Origin: an uncultured Ectothiorhodospiraceae bacterium | GTDB lineage: Bacteria; Pseudomonadota; Gammaproteobacteria; CAMYNG01 | NCBI GenBank assembly: GCA_947259765.1 | Contig: CAMYNG010000006.1 | Coordinates: 1 to 64,000 of the forward strand | Length of the DNA stretch: 64,000 bases | Direction of reading: 5' to 3' | Shown here: piece by piece, positions 22,607 to 43,610 of the stretch | Layout of the letters: each line of letters opens with the position of its first letter | Numbering within the stretch: the first letter of the stretch is position 1 | The notes under the pieces: generated by a model | Told to the model about the DNA's origin: nothing | The model's database searches: none | What the model saw: the letters and a program-made list of their open reading frames with translations, nothing else | Translations under genes and position numbers: made by a program

Positions 22607-23785
22607 TCAAGGTACTACGTAACCGTCAGTTAGCGTCTTCAGAAACGCAACCAGGGCCGCTTCTTCATCCGGCGTCAGATCCAGAAAACCAACATCCGCG
22701 GTGATATCGTTGTCCACTTCGGGAGCCGGTGGGTCGTCAGTGTTGTAAAAATCCACCACCTCTTCAAGCGTCGCGAACACACCGTTATGCATATACGGTG
22801 CAGTCAGTTCAATATTTCGCAGGGTCGACGTTTTAAATTTGCCGTTTTTCGTTGCCACCTGCACCTCGGCGCCTAATCCATTATCGATAAAGCTCGCGCC
22901 ATCAGGATTAAATGCCATGTCTTGCGTATAGAATGGATTGTTAGGGTTTTTCGGTACGCCAAGATTGAAGTAACGGAAATCGGTAAAGGACGCCGGCGGG
23001 TCCATGGGTGCGGGTAAGGTTTCCGGAAGGAGATGACAGGTGGCACATTTACCTTTCTTTTGAAACACGTCAAGGCCGAGCGTTTCCTGCGCGTTCAAGG
23101 TCACCATTCCCTTTTGAAAGAAATCAAACTTGGAGCTAAACGGGTTTAGTTCCGGTGACTTTTCAAACTCCGCAATAGCCGTGGCAATATTGTCATAAGC
23201 GACCTCGCTGTCGGCAAAGGCGTCTGCACCGAACACGTAAACGAACTTACCCGCATACGCCGAGTTTCGAACCTTGTTCACCACCGCGGCCTTGTCCGGA
23301 TTCGCCATTTCGATGGGATTCAAAAACGGGCCCTTGGCCTGCTCAACCAGATCGGCGGCACGTCCGTCGAGAAACTGACCACCCACATAGAAAAACACAG
23401 CCGGGTCCACCGCCGGATCATTGGTAAACTCAAATACCGGCGACAAGGAAGCATAGGCGGCGGTCGGCGTATTGCGGCCACCAAAGCGGCCGGCCATAAC
23501 GCCCTCGGATGTAGGCATATCACTGTCGGGGTCGGCAAAGCCAGCGGCCGGGTCATGGCAGGTCGCGCAGGCCTGTCCGGCCGGCGAAGACAGGTTGGTA
23601 TCAAAAAACAGTTCACGTCCCAGCTCGCTCATGGTGGCCTGCTCGGGAACGATCGGTGTAGGTGTAGGTGGCGTTAGTACCGGCGGCGGAGGTGAGCCGG
23701 CCGGTGCCGGATCGTCTGAACCCCCGCCACAGGCAGAGACCAATAAACCTGCCAACAGCACCGCTGGCCAAATTAACTTTTGCAT
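22607..23785 (-). CDS. Di-heme cytochrome c peroxidase-like lipoprotein
   Basis: Lipobox LLVSACGGG; two CXXCH motifs (CATCHDPAAGF, CATCHLLPE); LGRELFFDTNLSSPAGQACATCH. Confidence 0.88.
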   Translation of the reverse strand: MQKLIWPAVLLAGLLVSACGGGSDDPAPAGSPPPPVLTPPTPTPIVPEQATMSELGRELFFDTNLSSPAGQACATCHDPAAGFADPDSDMPTSEGVMAGRFGGRNTPTAAYASLSPVFEFTNDPAVDPAVFFYVGGQFLDGRAADLVEQAKGPFLNPIEMANPDKAAVVNKVRNSAYAGKFVYVFGADAFADSEVAYDNIATAIAEFEKSPELNPFSSKFDFFQKGMVTLNAQETLGLDVFQKKGKCATCHLLPETLPAPMDPPASFTDFRYFNLGVPKNPNNPFYTQDMAFNPDGASFIDNGLGAEVQVATKNGKFKTSTLRNIELTAPYMHNGVFATLEEVVDFYNTDDPPAPEVDNDITADVGFLDLTPDEEAALVAFLKTLTDGYVVP

Positions 23786-24111
23786 ACCATCCTCACAACA
23801 GACTTCGAATCGTTCACAACCGGGATGGGTAGTCCAAACCTGCATTGCGCCTAAAAGACATTACAGGTTAAGAGTTATTCAGATGGAAACGACTGGACGT
23901 GACCTGGATCAATCTATGAAAAAGATTTGCGTGCTCAATGTGTGGATATGTGAACCTATTCACGATCATTTCAGATGTCACAACTGGGTAAACGGGTATT
24001 TGCACACACAACATGACGGTGCGTCATGAGATTGAAAACAGATCGATTCTGAAAAAATGTTTTCAGACCAAGTTAGTCTGAATTAGGGAAACTCTGATTA
24101 ATTTCTTTGTT

Positions 24112-30008: not shown

Positions 30009-30199
30009 CCTAAATTCCTCGTGTTGGCAATAGTCGCTTAAACCGCTATTTCTAAGTCCGCGTAGGAACTAAAAACGCAGGCGATGCCAATTCGACGTGC
30101 GCATTGGCAAAAAGTTTTGTCGCTATTGTAACCAAGCTCGAACCTTGCTCGTCTCTTTCCCCGGGTGCAACGCGATTTAATTTAAAACAGGGGATAAGC

Positions 30200-31486
30200 A
30201 TGCGTAATCTAAACACTTTTTTGATTGTTTCATTAACCGGTCTGCTGCTGGCCGCTTGTGGGGGCGGGGGTGATGGCGATCCGCCGCCCATCGCCGGCCC
30301 AGACAACCCGCCGGTGACCACGCCACCGGACGGAATCTCAGGGGTCGTGGTCGCACCGGACAGCCTCACCCCGGTGGCTGGTGCGACGATTTTTGTTGCC
30401 GTGAACGAGGCCACGGCCCAGGACTTGACGGCCACCTCAGGATTAGCTTCCAAGGCAATGTCGGCCGCGATCGAGATTGCCTGCCCACCGCCAACTGAGA
30501 ATTACCTCGTTTACACCTGCTCCAAATCCGACGGCAGTTTTGTGCTGGACACCAAAGATCTATCGGCAACCGAGATGACTTTAAGCATTAAAAAGAGCTT
30601 CTTCAGCAAAACGGTTCCTGTCACGCTTGAGAACGGTATTGCCGCGCTGGGTAATGTTGCCCTGCCCGCCGACCCGGCAGCCGGGGCCGCCCGCTTTGCG
30701 GTAGTGCAGGGTTTGTTTGACCGCATGGAAGACATTTTAGCGAAAATGGGCATGGGTCAGTTGGATATGACCACGTATCAATTGGTGCCCGGCAGCGAAA
30801 CTTTTGCCCTGCTGGCAGACATGACGCCGCTGTTCATGGATGCCGATGCCGATGGTAAACCGGACATCTATCAGTTTGATGTGGTGTTTATCAACTGTGG
30901 CCAAATAAGTGAAATCGAAATTCTCGCTAACGCCACCTACCGTCAAGTGCTTGCGGATTACGTAACTCAAGGCGGTGTGTTGTATGTAACCGACCAGGCC
31001 TATGATTTTGTCGAGCAGGTGTTTCCGGATTATATCGATTTTCTTGGCGAAGATGCGGTACCCGCAAACACACCTGAGGGCTTGAACCAGGCACAACTGG
31101 GATTTGGCAACATTAACGTCACTGCAAATGTCGGAAATTCTCTACTCAGTCAGTGGTTGGCAACCGTAACCTGTACCGACGGCCCGTGCGTAAATCCGGA
31201 CGGCACCGTCGCCATCGCCGGGTTCCTGTCCGCCTGGACGGTCTTCAACGGCAGTCATGCCGCACAATCCGCCAATGTTACGAGCTGGGTCAATGGACCG
31301 GTAAGCTGGTTTAATATTCTTGACCCTACCTCACCGAATACACAGGGCGACAAGCCGTTAACCGTGACCCTGAAAATCGGCAACGGCAAGGTGCTATTTT
31401 CCTCGTATCACACCGACGAACTGCTACCGAGTGCCGGCTTTCACCCGCAAGAACGCATTCTGCAGTACTTGGTATTTGAATTGTAA
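30200..31486 (+). CDS. Lipoprotein with carboxypeptidase-regulatory-like N-terminal domain
   Basis: MRNLNTFLIVSLTGLLLAACGGGGDGD lipobox; GISGVVVAPDSLTPVAGATIFVAVNE; DGKPDIYQFDVVFINCGQ..., YVTQGGVLYVTDQAYDFVEQ. Confidence 0.75.
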   Translation: MRNLNTFLIVSLTGLLLAACGGGGDGDPPPIAGPDNPPVTTPPDGISGVVVAPDSLTPVAGATIFVAVNEATAQDLTATSGLASKAMSAAIEIACPPPTENYLVYTCSKSDGSFVLDTKDLSATEMTLSIKKSFFSKTVPVTLENGIAALGNVALPADPAAGAARFAVVQGLFDRMEDILAKMGMGQLDMTTYQLVPGSETFALLADMTPLFMDADADGKPDIYQFDVVFINCGQISEIEILANATYRQVLADYVTQGGVLYVTDQAYDFVEQVFPDYIDFLGEDAVPANTPEGLNQAQLGFGNINVTANVGNSLLSQWLATVTCTDGPCVNPDGTVAIAGFLSAWTVFNGSHAAQSANVTSWVNGPVSWFNILDPTSPNTQGDKPLTVTLKIGNGKVLFSSYHTDELLPSAGFHPQERILQYLVFEL

Positions 31487-31512
31487 AACGCTAGGGTAAG
31501 GCGGGATGGATT

Positions 31513-31542
31513 CCTGCCCGGTTCTTTCGGGCAGGACGTTTT
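31513..31542 (+). terminator. Hairpin with following T-rich stretch
   Basis: cctgcccg-gttcttt-cgggcagg followed by acgtttt. Confidence 0.55.
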
Positions 31543-31565: not shown

Positions 31566-34142
31566 ATGGCTAATAACAAACGTTCTGCGCTCGAAGTACT
31601 TTATATCGAATACAAGGACCACATTTACAACTATATATATAGACTGTGCAGCAACCCGGATCTCGCGCAGGATGTGGTGCAGCAAACGTTTCTGAAGCTA
31701 ATGCATGATCCGAATCTTGGTTCCCTGAGCCACCCCAAGGCCTACCTGTTTACCATCGCACGCAACACCCTGTACGACCAGTGGAAGAAAAAACGCGAGG
31801 TGTTACTTGCGAACGACGATCAGGAGGAGACCGGTCGCATGGTCGATGATATAAATCCATCACCACAGGAACAGGTACAGGAATCCGACCTGCAGAAAAA
31901 GGTCGCCGGCTACATTAATTCACTACCGGAAAAATCCCGCGAGCTAATGGTATTGCGCTATACCGAAGACATGTCCGTCAAAGAAATCTCTCATGTTACC
32001 GGCCGCAGTCTCTCGGATGTCAAGGTCAATTTACACCGCGCACGTCTTCGCTTTGATCAAGGTTTTACCCAGCACATGTATGCCAAGGTGGCGGCCTCGC
32101 GCGATAATTGCCGGGAACTTACGGCTTTGTTAGCACCCTATGACGATGAACTACCGGCCGATCAATTACCGCTGGTGGAACAACATTTGGTGTCTTGCAG
32201 CGTTTGCGCGGAAGACGCACAAGAAATGAAGCGCGCGCGCCAACTTTTCGCAACGCTACCCCTTATTGCGGCACCGCTCGCCCTGGATGCCGCCTTTAAC
32301 AAGGCCGTTGCGGCCGAGCTTGGCACCGCAGTTGGAAGTGCTGTGGGTACTACCGTCGGTGGTACGGCTTCCGGCGGCGCTGCGGTTACCAGTACTTCGG
32401 CGGCGGTCGGCAAAACCCTGGGCACCAAGGTAGCCGCCGGTGTTCTGGTCGCGGCTCTTGGCGGAGGGGCAGCCTACCTGGCAACAAAACCGGAGATTGA
32501 AAACGGCAGTGCCACACCGACCGAGGTTGCCGGTACAAACACCGCCGTCGGTCAGGCCGGCAGTGTGCCGATCAGGACGGCTGCACGCCTCACAGCAAAT
32601 GATGAAAAACTGGCAAGCGGTGTACACTGGACAGCCCATCGGCTGGACGCATCGCCGGACAGTCCGGCAACACCGAAGTGGGTCACCTCCAGCAACTCCT
32701 CGGAGCCAGTTTTCAAACTGGCGCCGGGACAATACCTGCTTACGGCACGCTATGGTGAGGCCCAGCAACAGAAACTTATTACGGTTGATAGCGACACACC
32801 ACAAGAACTGGATTTTGTACTCGGTGCCGGATTTTTACAGACAACGACACGCCTTAGTCCGGATTCTCAACCCTTGGACAGCGGCGTTAGATATACCGTG
32901 CATGAGGCCTTGCCCGACAAAGACGGCAAGTACAAGTATGTCACCGCGATTTCAACTAATTCCGGCGCCTCCCGGCTACCTGCCGGTCGTTACCGGATCA
33001 CTGCCCGCACGGCCAACAACGCAGAAACCAGCCAGGAGTTTGAAGTGCTTGCGGGTAAACGTACCGACGTCGATCTCGTATTGCAGTCAGGTTATCTTCA
33101 GTTGGGTGCACGCCTGACTCCAAAAGGCCCACTGCTGGAACAAGGCGTGAAGTTCAACATCTACAGCGCTGAGCCGGATTCACAGGGCAAATACACGTAT
33201 ATAACTCAAACCCGTCCAAACAGCCCAGCAGTCAGCCTCGCGGCAGGCCACTATCGCATTGAAACAAGCTACGGCCGTAACAGCAAAAATGTTGTTGGCG
33301 ATCTGGAAGTAAAGGCCGGTGAACGTACCGTACATGACGATATCGTTTTGGGCAGCGGGTTTCTCCAGCTCGGTGCTCGTCTGGCGCAAGGCGCGCCATT
33401 GCTAAAAAGTAAGGTAAAGTTCAATGTCTACCATGCCGAGCAAAAACCGGATGGCAAATTCGATTATGTCACTCAGCTCTATCCTAACAGCGGTCCCGTT
33501 AGTTTGGCGGCAGGACACTACCGCGTTGAATCAAGTTTCGGTCGCAACGGTAAACATCTTGTGGAAGATCTGGAAGTCAAGGCCGGAGAAAAAACCGAGT
33601 ATAACGATATTGTGCTCAACAGCGGCTTCCTTGAGCTTGGTGCACGTCTGGCGCCCGGCGGTCCGTTACTTAACAAAGACGTCAAGTTCAATATCTACTA
33701 TGCAAAACCGGAGGTAACCGGCAAGTACAAATACATCGCCCAGCTTTATCACAACAGTGGGCCCGTCAGTTTTGCGGCGAATCGTTATCGGGTTGAGGCG
33801 GTTTATGGCACTAACGGCAAGCAGACAACTGAGGTCACGGTCACTCCCGGCAAAAAAACCACGCAAAAAAATATTGTTTTGAACGCCGGTTTATTAAAGT
33901 TGAGTGCCTTTTCGAAAGGTCAAAAAACCGAATTGAAAAAGGATGTGAAATTCAACATATATTCTGACAGCACCGACGCAGCCGGCAAACGCAAATATCT
34001 GGCGCAGACCTATCCGGGCAGGAAACCGGCAAAACTTGCTGCGGGTACCTATTACATTACGGCTATCCAAAAAGACAAGCAGGTTAGCAAGCAGGTGACA
34101 GTGAAGGCGGGTAAAACCGTTGATGTTAAGCTGATGCTTTAG
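31566..34142 (+). CDS. ECF sigma factor / zf-HC2-like / TM / tandem-repeat fusion protein
   Basis: One 858-aa ORF: sigma-70 region 2 (YIEYKDHIYNYIYRLCSNPDLAQDVVQQTFLKLM) and region 4 (SLPEKSRELMVLRYTEDMSVKEISHVTGRSLSDVKVNLHRARLRF), HLVSCSVC (HX3CX2C), hydrophobic VAAGVLVAALGGGAAYLA, then six related ~87-aa units. Confidence 0.9.
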   Translation: MANNKRSALEVLYIEYKDHIYNYIYRLCSNPDLAQDVVQQTFLKLMHDPNLGSLSHPKAYLFTIARNTLYDQWKKKREVLLANDDQEETGRMVDDINPSPQEQVQESDLQKKVAGYINSLPEKSRELMVLRYTEDMSVKEISHVTGRSLSDVKVNLHRARLRFDQGFTQHMYAKVAASRDNCRELTALLAPYDDELPADQLPLVEQHLVSCSVCAEDAQEMKRARQLFATLPLIAAPLALDAAFNKAVAAELGTAVGSAVGTTVGGTASGGAAVTSTSAAVGKTLGTKVAAGVLVAALGGGAAYLATKPEIENGSATPTEVAGTNTAVGQAGSVPIRTAARLTANDEKLASGVHWTAHRLDASPDSPATPKWVTSSNSSEPVFKLAPGQYLLTARYGEAQQQKLITVDSDTPQELDFVLGAGFLQTTTRLSPDSQPLDSGVRYTVHEALPDKDGKYKYVTAISTNSGASRLPAGRYRITARTANNAETSQEFEVLAGKRTDVDLVLQSGYLQLGARLTPKGPLLEQGVKFNIYSAEPDSQGKYTYITQTRPNSPAVSLAAGHYRIETSYGRNSKNVVGDLEVKAGERTVHDDIVLGSGFLQLGARLAQGAPLLKSKVKFNVYHAEQKPDGKFDYVTQLYPNSGPVSLAAGHYRVESSFGRNGKHLVEDLEVKAGEKTEYNDIVLNSGFLELGARLAPGGPLLNKDVKFNIYYAKPEVTGKYKYIAQLYHNSGPVSFAANRYRVEAVYGTNGKQTTEVTVTPGKKTTQKNIVLNAGLLKLSAFSKGQKTELKKDVKFNIYSDSTDAAGKRKYLAQTYPGRKPAKLAAGTYYITAIQKDKQVSKQVTVKAGKTVDVKLML
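32565..34139 (+). repeat. Six tandem protein-coding repeats of 86-89 aa
   Basis: Units begin about 32565, 32823, 33084, 33351, 33618, 33882; consensus xSGFLxLGARLxPxxPLLxxxVKFNIYxAxPxxxGKYxYxxQxxxNSxPVSLAAGHYRVExxYGxNxK...VKAGxKTxxxDIVL. Confidence 0.9.
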
Positions 34143-34230: not shown

Positions 34231-34396
34231 AACCGGAGCTTAGCCGGCAGTATCTTGGCAGCGGCATAGATCTGGTTACGTCGTTCCGAAGTAAAATCCC
34301 TCTTTATACAAAGGGTCTCTGTTTGTTCACAGCGCAAATTGGTCCATAATGGCGCACACTTGTTTACCACACCAAAACGAACTGGCTGGAAATTTT

Positions 34397-35209
34397 ATGA
34401 CCGCGCCTGCACTAAAACCGGAAGAGTATTTTATAAAGGAAGAGCCCTATTACGAGCCCGTTGGCGACGAAATAGAAATCTTTCAGGCGGCTTTTGAGCA
34501 AAAGCTACCCGTATTACTCAAAGGGCCAACCGGTTGTGGCAAAACCCGTTTTATGGAACATATGGCCTGGCGGCTGAAAAAGCCGCTGATCACGGTATCT
34601 TGTCATGATGACCTGACAGCGTCTGATCTGGTAGGACGTTTTTTGGTCAAAGGTGGTGAGACGATCTGGGTCGACGGACCACTTACCCGCGCCGCCCGCA
34701 GCGGTGCGATTTGTTATCTGGATGAGGTCGTTGAGGCGCGCAAAGACACCACCGTGGTGATTCATCCGCTGGCCGACGACCGCCGTGTACTACCGATAGA
34801 AAAGCTCGGTGAAATTGTAGAGGCGCCGGACGATTTTTGTTTGGCCATTTCCTATAACCCGGGCTACCAGAGCGTGCTAAAGGATTTAAAACAAAGTACC
34901 CGCCAACGTTTCGTTGCGCTGGAGTTTGACTACCCGGCGGCGGAACTCGAAACCAATATTGTCGCGCGTGAAACCGGCGTCAGTCACGAAATTGCGGCAA
35001 AACTGGTCAAATTTGCCGGCATGACGCGAAATCTCAAAGGCAGCGGCCTTGAAGAAGGCGCCAGCACTCGCTTACTGGTCCACGCAGCAAAACTGATCGG
35101 TACCGGTGTCTCTCCTGTCGCGGCGTGCCAATCAGCCATTGCACAGGCACTTACCGATGATACCGAAATGTTGGCTGCGGTGAGCGAACTCTCCTCATCC
35201 TTGTTCTAG
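34397..35209 (+). CDS. cbbQ: CbbQ/NirQ/NorQ-type MoxR AAA+ ATPase
   Basis: [86 protein letters not shown]. Confidence 0.85.
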
Positions 35210-35269
35210 CTAAACAGGCAATCGTTATTCATTTTTGCTGAACCAGGAAACAACCCGACGATTGCGCCT

Positions 35270-37393
35270 ATGGCCCGGACCCGACTCACGTTTGACAAAA
35301 TATGTGCCACGCTGGATCGTTGCCTTGATGTCGAATTTTCGTTTTTAAAAACTGAGCAACCGGCGGCGATTATCGCGGAGCTTGATTCAGATCAGCAGGG
35401 CTATATTCTGGAGTGGGTGCAACGTGTCGCCAGCACCAATATCCAATTGTCATATCAATTCATCACCCAGGCCACGGCCGTACTGGATCGCATGGATCGC
35501 GGCATCATCGAAGCGTGGGCGTTACATGCAATGGATATGTACGATCAATCCGGATTGCATGCCGCACTCAACGTGATCAAAAGCGTTGACAAATTTGTTC
35601 AACTAAGCCATGAACGTACTGCGGGTGCGGTATTTGAAGACAACGTCGGGGTTCTTTCACATTTTGTTCACGGTCTATCTGGCCGCCAACTCAAACTGGC
35701 AGAGGCCGACTGTGTATATACCGATACCGAGACGCTTTTTTTACCTCCGGTGATCGCGCAACTACAAACCACACAGGAAAATTTCCTGCTGTATAAAATA
35801 ATGGTTGCATACCTGTGGGCGCAAACACGCTTTGGAACTTTTCGTGAATCCGTGAGCGAAGCACTGCAGGAAGAATCCGATCCGCAACAGTTTCTGGATC
35901 TTTTTCATGCGCTTGACAGTGTTCGACTTGAGGCGTGTATCGAGCGTGAATTACCGGGACTGCATCGAGAACTTAATCGAATTAAAGCCACGCTTCAGGC
36001 TGACTGCTCTACCGACCCGAGCTGGGCGACTCAGGTTGAAGAACTATGCGCGCCCGATTGTGATGTTGCTACGGTTTTGCGATTGACCCGAACCGCCAAG
36101 GGTAAAGATTCTCCTCCAAGGACCTTGTTCTATCATGGTGTCCTCGATATCGAGGCGGTAGAAACAGTAATGGCTCAGCGGCTGGAGAAGGAAAAGGCGC
36201 AGTTGCGTTCTGTGCTTCGGCAAATTGCCGAGGATATGCAAGACGGTGAAGCGGAAGATTCTACCGAACAAAAGCAGTTTGAAGCCAATAAAAAAGCCGA
36301 CCCATCACAACCGGAAGGTTTTACGATTGAGTTGACTCTACAGGATCAACCAGTACCGATCCCTGAAGTCGTTAATCGCCTGACGACCTCTATCGTACAA
36401 GATCTGGGCGATATTCCCGACGACTACCTGCAAGCCGCGGGCGAGGGTGAATATGATCCGGCCTTGTTCCTTGAGAAAGAGGTCGATCCGGACGACGTAT
36501 GGAAAGGCACGTACCACGAGGAAGGTGCTTTTTTATACAACGAATGGGATTTTCGCCGCCAACACTACCGCAAAAGCTGGTGTGCGGTACGCGAAAAAGA
36601 CATCACTCCCGTGCACGATGATTTTGTGCGCGCTACGCTGGGAAAGTATAGCGGCTTTATTAAACAATTACGCAAGACCTTTGAGGCCATGCGCGATGAA
36701 GATCGATTGCTAAAACGGCAGGTCCACGGCGATGGAATTGATATAGACGCCCTGGTAGAAGCACTGGCCGACGCACGCGACGGCAGCGAAATGTCTGATC
36801 GTTTGTTCACCCGCATGCATCGCACCGAACGCAACATCGCAGTATGTTTCATGGTGGACATGAGCGGTTCAACCAAAGGCTGGATTAACGATGCCGAACG
36901 CGAATCGTTGATACTGCTGGCTGAAACATTGGAGACTCTGGGCGATCGTTACGCGATTTACGGCTTTTCCGGCATGGCGCGCAAGAAGTGTGAAATCTAT
37001 CGTATTAAGGAGTTTGACGAGCAGTACGACAGTGAGGTGCGCGCGCGCATCAGCGGTATTACACCGCAGGACTATACCCGTATGGGATTTGCCATCCGCC
37101 ATTTAACACAGAAACTTCTGGAAACCGAAGCACGCACACGCATCCTGATTACGCTTTCAGACGGCAAGCCGGACGACTACGACAATTATCGCGGTGAATA
37201 CGGTATCGAGGATACGCGCCGTGCCCTGGTTGAGTCCCGGCGTGCCGGCATACACCCGTACTGCATCACGATCGATCGTGAAGCGCGTGACTACTTACCC
37301 CATATGTATGGCGCCGCCGGCTACACGGTTATAGATGCGGTTTACAAGCTACCGCTCAAGGTCTCGGATATCTACCGCCGACTTACAACCTAA
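35270..37393 (+). CDS. cbbO: CbbO/NorD-type VWA-domain protein
   Basis: 707 aa; C-terminal VWA with MIDAS FMVDMSGSTKGW; adjacent to CbbQ-type ATPase. Confidence 0.8.
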   Translation: MARTRLTFDKICATLDRCLDVEFSFLKTEQPAAIIAELDSDQQGYILEWVQRVASTNIQLSYQFITQATAVLDRMDRGIIEAWALHAMDMYDQSGLHAALNVIKSVDKFVQLSHERTAGAVFEDNVGVLSHFVHGLSGRQLKLAEADCVYTDTETLFLPPVIAQLQTTQENFLLYKIMVAYLWAQTRFGTFRESVSEALQEESDPQQFLDLFHALDSVRLEACIERELPGLHRELNRIKATLQADCSTDPSWATQVEELCAPDCDVATVLRLTRTAKGKDSPPRTLFYHGVLDIEAVETVMAQRLEKEKAQLRSVLRQIAEDMQDGEAEDSTEQKQFEANKKADPSQPEGFTIELTLQDQPVPIPEVVNRLTTSIVQDLGDIPDDYLQAAGEGEYDPALFLEKEVDPDDVWKGTYHEEGAFLYNEWDFRRQHYRKSWCAVREKDITPVHDDFVRATLGKYSGFIKQLRKTFEAMRDEDRLLKRQVHGDGIDIDALVEALADARDGSEMSDRLFTRMHRTERNIAVCFMVDMSGSTKGWINDAERESLILLAETLETLGDRYAIYGFSGMARKKCEIYRIKEFDEQYDSEVRARISGITPQDYTRMGFAIRHLTQKLLETEARTRILITLSDGKPDDYDNYRGEYGIEDTRRALVESRRAGIHPYCITIDREARDYLPHMYGAAGYTVIDAVYKLPLKVSDIYRRLTT

Positions 37394-42263: not shown

Positions 42264-43610
42264 TTAACGTGCGCTTAGCAAATGCATTCCTTTCAGCACA
42301 TTGATGGCCTCGTATAGGAAGTAGTCAGATGCCGCAAGCGGCTCTTCCTTTTCCTTTGTGGCGCCATCTTTCTTTTTGCCACCGTCCGGCTTCTTGGATT
42401 GGCCCTTACTTCCGGATTTCTTGCCGCCGTTATCAAGGTGCCCGGTCAGATCACTTTCCTTAAGAAGACCCAAACCGTCATCATCGCGTATATCCACTTT
42501 TAGATTGTCGAGTTTGATATCCGGCGTAATGCCTTCCGCCTGAATAGAACGACCGGAAGGGGTGTAATAACGCGCGGTGGTCAATTTAAGCGCGGTATTG
42601 TTGCCCAGGGGCACCACAGTTTGTACAGAGCCTTTACCGAATGTTTGTTTGCCCATAACAATAGCGCGCTTGTGATCCTGCAGAGCACCGGCGACGATTT
42701 CCGACGCCGAGGCGGAACCGCCGTTAACCAGCACGACCATGGGGATTGAATTGATCATATCCGTGGGATTCGCCTGATGCTTGAGTTGATTTTCGTCACT
42801 ACGTCCCTTGACGCTGACGATCATTCCGTTGGTAAGAAAGACGTCGGAGACGGCGACTGCGGCATCCAAAAGTCCACCCGGGTTATTTCGCAGATCCAAT
42901 ACCATGCCGCGAAGACCATCCTTGTTTTCCTTTTTTAGTTTTTTAATGGCGTCTTTCAGTTCACTGCCGGTGCGTTCCTGAAACTGAGTAATGCGAATAT
43001 AACCATATCCGTCTTCAATAGTGCGCGATTTGACACTTTTAACCCGAATGCGATCACGCGTAATGCTGATTTTGAGTGGCTTCTCTGCGCCTTCGCGAAC
43101 TACGGTCAGGGTAATTTCCGATCCAGGCTTGCCGCGCATCATTTTCACTGCGTCGTCCAGAGTCATGCCCTTCACCGGTGTTTCGTCGAGACGAATGATG
43201 AGATCCCCCGCCTTGATCCCGGCCCGGTCTGCCGGCGTGTCATCTATCGGCGACACGACTTTAACAAAGCCGTCTTCCATTCCAACCACGATTCCCAGGC
43301 CACCGAATTCGCCGGTCGTACCCACGCGCAGTTCCTGGAAGGCTTCCTTATCCAAATAACTTGAATGGGGATCGAGTCCGGTCAACATGCCACGAATGGC
43401 GTTTTCCAGGAGCGTGCTGTCTTTGACGTCCTCAACGTAGTTTTCCTTAATTTTGCCGAAAACCTCACTCAGACTGCGAACTTCTTCTAAGGGCAGGGTT
43501 GAAAACCGCGCATTGTTACGGTCTGCAAGCACGCCATGGCCAATCGCAAGGAATAAGCCTAATAGCAGGCCCGTGAAAAGAATTGATACGTTTCGCAAAG
43601 AGGGTTTCAT
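42264..43610 (-). CDS. ctpA: S41 family carboxy-terminal processing peptidase
   Basis: 448 aa; PDZ (GGLGIVVGMEDGFVKVVSPIDDTPADRAGIKAGD), catalytic VLVNGGSASASEIVAGALQDHKRA. Confidence 0.95.
   Translation of the reverse strand: MKPSLRNVSILFTGLLLGLFLAIGHGVLADRNNARFSTLPLEEVRSLSEVFGKIKENYVEDVKDSTLLENAIRGMLTGLDPHSSYLDKEAFQELRVGTTGEFGGLGIVVGMEDGFVKVVSPIDDTPADRAGIKAGDLIIRLDETPVKGMTLDDAVKMMRGKPGSEITLTVVREGAEKPLKISITRDRIRVKSVKSRTIEDGYGYIRITQFQERTGSELKDAIKKLKKENKDGLRGMVLDLRNNPGGLLDAAVAVSDVFLTNGMIVSVKGRSDENQLKHQANPTDMINSIPMVVLVNGGSASASEIVAGALQDHKRAIVMGKQTFGKGSVQTVVPLGNNTALKLTTARYYTPSGRSIQAEGITPDIKLDNLKVDIRDDDGLGLLKESDLTGHLDNGGKKSGSKGQSKKPDGGKKKDGATKEKEEPLAASDYFLYEAINVLKGMHLLSAR

Follow-up and report, generated by a model that had tools for sequence, protein, structure and literature searches.

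A single open reading frame from an uncultured Ectothiorhodospiraceae bacterium raises the question of whether a sigma factor, its inhibitor and a sensor can be carried across the membrane by one polypeptide, and how such a protein might be activated. We analysed a 64,000-nucleotide stretch of contig CAMYNG010000006.1 (the window), in which a sequence-only reading had claimed an uninterrupted frame encoding a fused protein of 858 residues. Translation bore this out, giving one frame of 858 codons with only 7 codons between the upstream in-frame stop and the ATG. A domain search placed both of the sigma-70 regions named in that reading, 2 and 4, above their Pfam cut-offs (Table 1), and NCBIfam TIGR02937 matched at 83.3 bits (cut-off, 42.9). 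With regions 2 and 4 as its only sigma-70 regions, the protein is of the ECF type. The feature positions given beforehand were correct to within a few residues.

The segment following the sigma part had been taken for a zf-HC2 anti-sigma domain because of an HX3CX2C motif. This motif is present, with an upstream Cys ligand as expected for a class I ZAS domain, in the arrangement C182-x24-H207-x3-C211-x2-C214, and all four ligands are invariant in 5 of 5 aligned family members (window protein included). The Pfam assignment, however, did not hold: the zf-HC2 match at residues 182–215, lying exactly over C182 to C214, reached 12.1 bits against a gathering cut-off of 22.2, and every member reported stayed below that value (12.1–15.5 bits), although class I ZAS domains are also expected to exceed it. 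A four-ligand pattern of this kind arose in 0 of 20,000 shuffles of the protein, whose only four cysteines are the three zinc-motif ligands and C28. When hhalign was used to compare a 144-residue region with five stand-alone anti-sigma factors of the same taxonomic class, the alignment spanned the C/H/C/C motif with 95.9% probability (E 6e-9). As this profile comparison is strong, reading the region as a fused anti-sigma domain is independent of the sub-threshold Pfam match. No anti-sigma gene was found among the genes adjacent to the frame.

A hydrophobic, Gly/Ala-rich segment had been proposed around residues 289–306. We found it at residues 289–307, the top-scoring hydrophobic 19-mer of the protein (Kyte–Doolittle 1.74). 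By score it is a marginal transmembrane segment, with a weak summed apolarity of +5.1; its position is kept in homologues (Kyte–Doolittle 1.62–2.34), and the low-complexity linkers on either side vary freely among them. The transmembrane hydropathy of two fused Streptomyces proteins described below (1.69–1.75) is close to that of the window protein. Beyond this segment, the claim of six repeats of about 87 residues agreed with autocorrelation (maximum at 87–89 residues), alignment (six copies of 86–89 residues each) and a repeat HMM, which was built partly from copies 2–6 themselves; copy 1 was excluded from it and matches weakly. A single repeat was modelled as a seven-stranded sandwich (pLDDT 94.6), with transthyretins and the transthyretin-like domain of carboxypeptidase D as structural neighbours at a TM-score of ∼0.6 and weak E-values, and the repeats thus model as transthyretin/CarboxypepD_reg-like domains. 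A PDB sequence search for relatives of the repeat gave none that were significant. The full-length structure model is good for the repeats and poor for most of residues 77–331, so that contacts between the sigma and zinc domains are invisible in it.

Counting the window's own genome, 8 of 369 genomes searched from the class contained matches to the repeat HMM. Four of these, all outside the family (G006, G039, G094 and G163), were inspected, and there the repeats come after a hydrophobic signal-like N-terminus and a VWA domain. Because VWA proteins with such N-termini carry the repeats, an extracytoplasmic place is the best guess here as well, and the repeats most likely sit in the periplasm, which supports the topology proposed in the sequence-only reading. 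These VWA proteins are encoded at L024 7099–9150, L026 423–2639 (−), L068 304–2259 and L025 7911–10738 (−); at L025 (G039), the VWA protein and the remaining repeat array lie in two overlapping frames.

Table 1. Features of the fused sigma factor gene and its upstream neighbour (window coordinates)
Feature	Position	Strand	Evidence
Fused ECF sigma / zinc anti-sigma / TM / repeat protein, 858 aa	31566..34142	+	Open translation; homologues L027/L021, L028/L022+L023, L029, L030, L004
Sigma-70 region 2, residues 12-77	31599..31796	+	Pfam PF04542 (Sigma70_r2), E 1e-12, above cut-off
Sigma-70 region 4, residues 116-162	31911..32051	+	Pfam PF08281 (Sigma70_r4_2), E 2.2e-12, above cut-off
ZAS / zf-HC2-like motif C182-H207-C211-C214	32109..32207	+	Invariant in 5 aligned members; hhalign 95.9%; zf-HC2 sub-threshold
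Probable transmembrane helix, residues 289-307	32430..32486	+	Best KD19 window here and in homologues; Streptomyces/Thermomicrobium fusions similar
Repeat 1, divergent	32571..32804	+	Repeat HMM E 1.6e-7
Repeat 2	32823..33086	+	Repeat HMM E 1e-31
Repeat 3, modelled transthyretin-like beta-sandwich, pLDDT 94.6	33087..33350	+	Repeat HMM and single-repeat model
Repeat 4	33351..33617	+	Repeat HMM E 2e-34
Repeat 5	33618..33881	+	Repeat HMM E 1.5e-36
Repeat 6	33882..34139	+	Repeat HMM E 5e-30
Predicted lipoprotein, lipobox LLLAACGGGG, candidate partner	30104..31486	+	57% identical homologue upstream of fused sigma in L029
Terminator-like hairpin between lipoprotein and sigma genes	31512..31536	+	8 such sites in region vs 5.5 expected by chance

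Because the DNA comes from a fragmented draft assembly in 50 contigs (72.6% complete), we considered that sequencing or assembly had joined two genes by mistake. However, the two parts are joined in the same way in independently assembled MAGs, at 32–49% overall identity. Such divergent, separately assembled genomes cannot share an assembly error, and we therefore reject an artefact, leaving it a practically negligible probability. Among 95 genomes searched, G005 (L027) encodes a protein 49% identical over residues 2–689 that stays open until the contig end, and fragments were found in G003 and G001. The G003 gene is split over two contigs that share an exact 127-base end inside the gene, and these therefore very probably carry the halves of a single gene; in G001, the part with the repeats is all that is visible, from a contig end onwards. 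A pattern scan of GTDB species genomes yielded two further MAGs with complete fusions (L029, 671 aa; L030, 686 aa). The family totals six genomes (G000, G001, G003, G005, G750 and G751), and the homologous MAGs belong to the Gammaproteobacteria/Chromatiales.

Beyond the window's own family and the two new MAGs, no fused form turned up in overlapping samples that covered 369 genomes from the class, 399 from the phylum and 115 related to one of these MAGs. The remaining sigma matches either stop at about residue 165 or continue past a stop codon into the next, separate gene, which encodes an anti-sigma factor in the loci inspected. The sigma domains of the family form one clade (support 100/94). 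The tree places the gammaproteobacterial and actinobacterial fusions on one side of a branch, as a shared origin would, but long branches meet at that point. A viral origin was rejected, as viral contigs held no relatives. This rare gammaproteobacterial clade, with its different sensor part, appears to be new.

The fusion itself is less surprising than the sequence-only reading had implied, because the plan is already known from ECF48, ECF52, ECF53 and IutY (PMC8999054, PMC5826349, PMC5411451). Actinobacterial ECF48, ECF52 and ECF53 are fused membrane ECFs with a zinc domain and one or two transmembrane helices (PMC8999054); SCO4117 (ECF52) has the same domain order as the window protein, and its truncation data were read as consistent with release (PMC5826349). 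These groups share with the window protein an ECF sigma factor, zinc finger, transmembrane segment and extracytoplasmic extension in one polypeptide (PMC5826349, PMC8999054), but their ends are carbohydrate-binding (AbfB, ricin-type lectin) or proline-rich, whereas the window protein ends in six transthyretin-like repeats. ECF52 has been described as exclusive to Actinobacteria, with a carbohydrate-binding domain and a proline-rich extension. As the window protein contains no carbohydrate-binding Pfam family and its homologous MAGs are gammaproteobacterial, we do not file it as ECF52, although, judged by its sequence, it would work like an ECF52-type protein.

A survey for other fusions found sigma–zinc–transmembrane proteins encoded on plasmids of Thermomicrobium and Streptomyces, with the four zinc ligands of the window protein in place, and the domain order originally claimed is therefore seen both in the homologues and in fused sigma factors of other phyla. 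The Streptomyces proteins, from S. globosus (524 aa, AbfB end) and Streptomyces sp. NBC_00334 (554 aa, ricin-lectin end), have this order and the same C/H/C/C columns, and are 23% identical to the window protein in a joint alignment. With the Thermomicrobium and Streptomyces fusions aligned together, only 13 columns are invariant, C182, H207, C211 and C214 among them. TRD_RS13910 of Thermomicrobium roseum (436 aa) likewise joins sigma, C/H/C/C motif and transmembrane segment, but has a short C-terminal region without a repeat array. This fusion (L110 2923–4233), from outside Actinobacteria and Proteobacteria, is annotated only as RNA polymerase sigma factor.

Within the Gammaproteobacteria, IutY of Pseudomonas putida (ECF243) is also a membrane-spanning fusion of sigma and anti-sigma factor, and Prc and then RseP activate it (PMC5411451). 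IutY differs in having a CSS (FecR-type) anti-sigma part and in working with a TonB-dependent receptor. A Pfam scan found no FecR domain in the 858-residue protein, which is therefore not IutY-like, and no receptor gene was seen adjacent to it. RpoE–RseA–RseB of the same genome (names assigned from the sequences) similarly places an ECF sigma factor under a membrane anti-sigma factor, but through three separate genes and with a sigma domain elsewhere in the tree.

Among the neighbouring genes, the upstream lipoprotein is a candidate partner only. In L029, a gap of 15 bp separates its homologue from the fused sigma gene that follows; none was found in G001–G005, and the neighbour is clearly common to the window and L029 only. 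The lipoprotein has a poly-Gly stretch behind its lipobox and no Pfam family, and the N-terminal region of a MauG-type dihaem peroxidase (22607–23845, −) resembles its own (41% over ∼80 aa). Downstream (34349–37393, +) lies a pair of the MoxR/VWA type, a CbbQ/NorQ-type AAA+ ATPase followed by a protein that weakly matches a CobT-like VWA family; we rejected this pair as a conserved partner, because it is not beside the sigma gene in L029, L030 or G003. L029 (8043–8840, 265 aa) and L030 (5666–6442, 258 aa) encode similar signal-peptide proteins about 11 bases after the fused sigma gene, which are likely co-transcribed with it and possibly its partner or target. The upstream regions of the homologues were too different for a conserved autoregulatory promoter to be picked out by eye, a sigma-70 promoter scan gave nothing above chance, and an Rfam scan of the window gave no match. 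The genome encodes RseP (391 bits) and the window an S41 (Prc-family) peptidase at 42264–43610; both are common genes and prove nothing specific here.

How, then, might the protein work? Established directly are the domain order, the retention of the fusion and its zinc ligands, the repeat fold (as a model) and the protease genes; we infer the topology, an inhibitory role of the zinc domain, a signal from the periplasm and proteolytic release. Probably, the whole is a transmembrane ECF signalling protein made of one polypeptide. In the cytoplasm, the sigma domain (residues 1–170) would be kept inactive by the adjoining zinc anti-sigma domain (about 180–240), and one membrane helix (about 289–307) would place the array of six transthyretin-like domains in the periplasm, where it would serve as sensor or anchor. 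Activation would most likely start from a signal in the envelope or from a partner protein, for instance the lipoprotein encoded upstream. Site-1 cleavage followed by RseP-type intramembrane cleavage, the most likely route of release, would then free a fragment of sigma and zinc domain, whose activity would await degradation or opening of the zinc domain.

The signal could instead be cytoplasmic: the C/H/C/C motif would be a switch of the RsrA type, responding to redox state or zinc, and the repeats would serve as mere anchor or scaffold. Redox zinc anti-sigma factors, RsrA among them, have a spacing similar to C-x24/25-H-x3-C-x2-C, and the protein has no cysteines other than C28 and the three that act as ligands. 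However, class I anti-sigma factors that carry this motif are in many cases not redox switches, and the repeat region is retained in every member whose C-terminal part is seen, which suggests that the repeats matter; we consider a cytoplasmic signal improbable. By analogy with IutY, regulated proteolytic release and tethered transcription are both plausible. In the latter, the sigma factor would stay membrane-bound and be switched by a conformational change through the helix, without proteolysis. Conformational activation is known in the fused ECF41 and ECF238 (PMC8999054), and as the zinc domain is covalently joined to the sigma domain, membrane release alone would not part them. Nonetheless, IutY, the membrane-spanning fused ECF whose activation has been worked out, relies on proteolysis, which is also predicted for ECF48, ECF52 and ECF53 (PMC8999054), so that tethered transcription seems unlikely here. 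Proteolytic release from a zinc-inhibited state remains our preferred reading. A more specific form of it, in which this is a gammaproteobacterial one-component surface signalling system whose transthyretin-like array reads an envelope partner (for example, the lipoprotein) and controls its own sigma factor by intramembrane proteolysis, independently of a TonB receptor, is a speculative and rather doubtful proposal.

Overall, these data extend the membrane-tethered zinc-type ECF fusion to the Gammaproteobacteria, where the sensor part differs. As a single gene carries sensor, inhibitor and sigma factor together, the relief of a covalently attached anti-sigma domain could be tested in a Gram-negative laboratory host for which Prc and RseP mutants are known.
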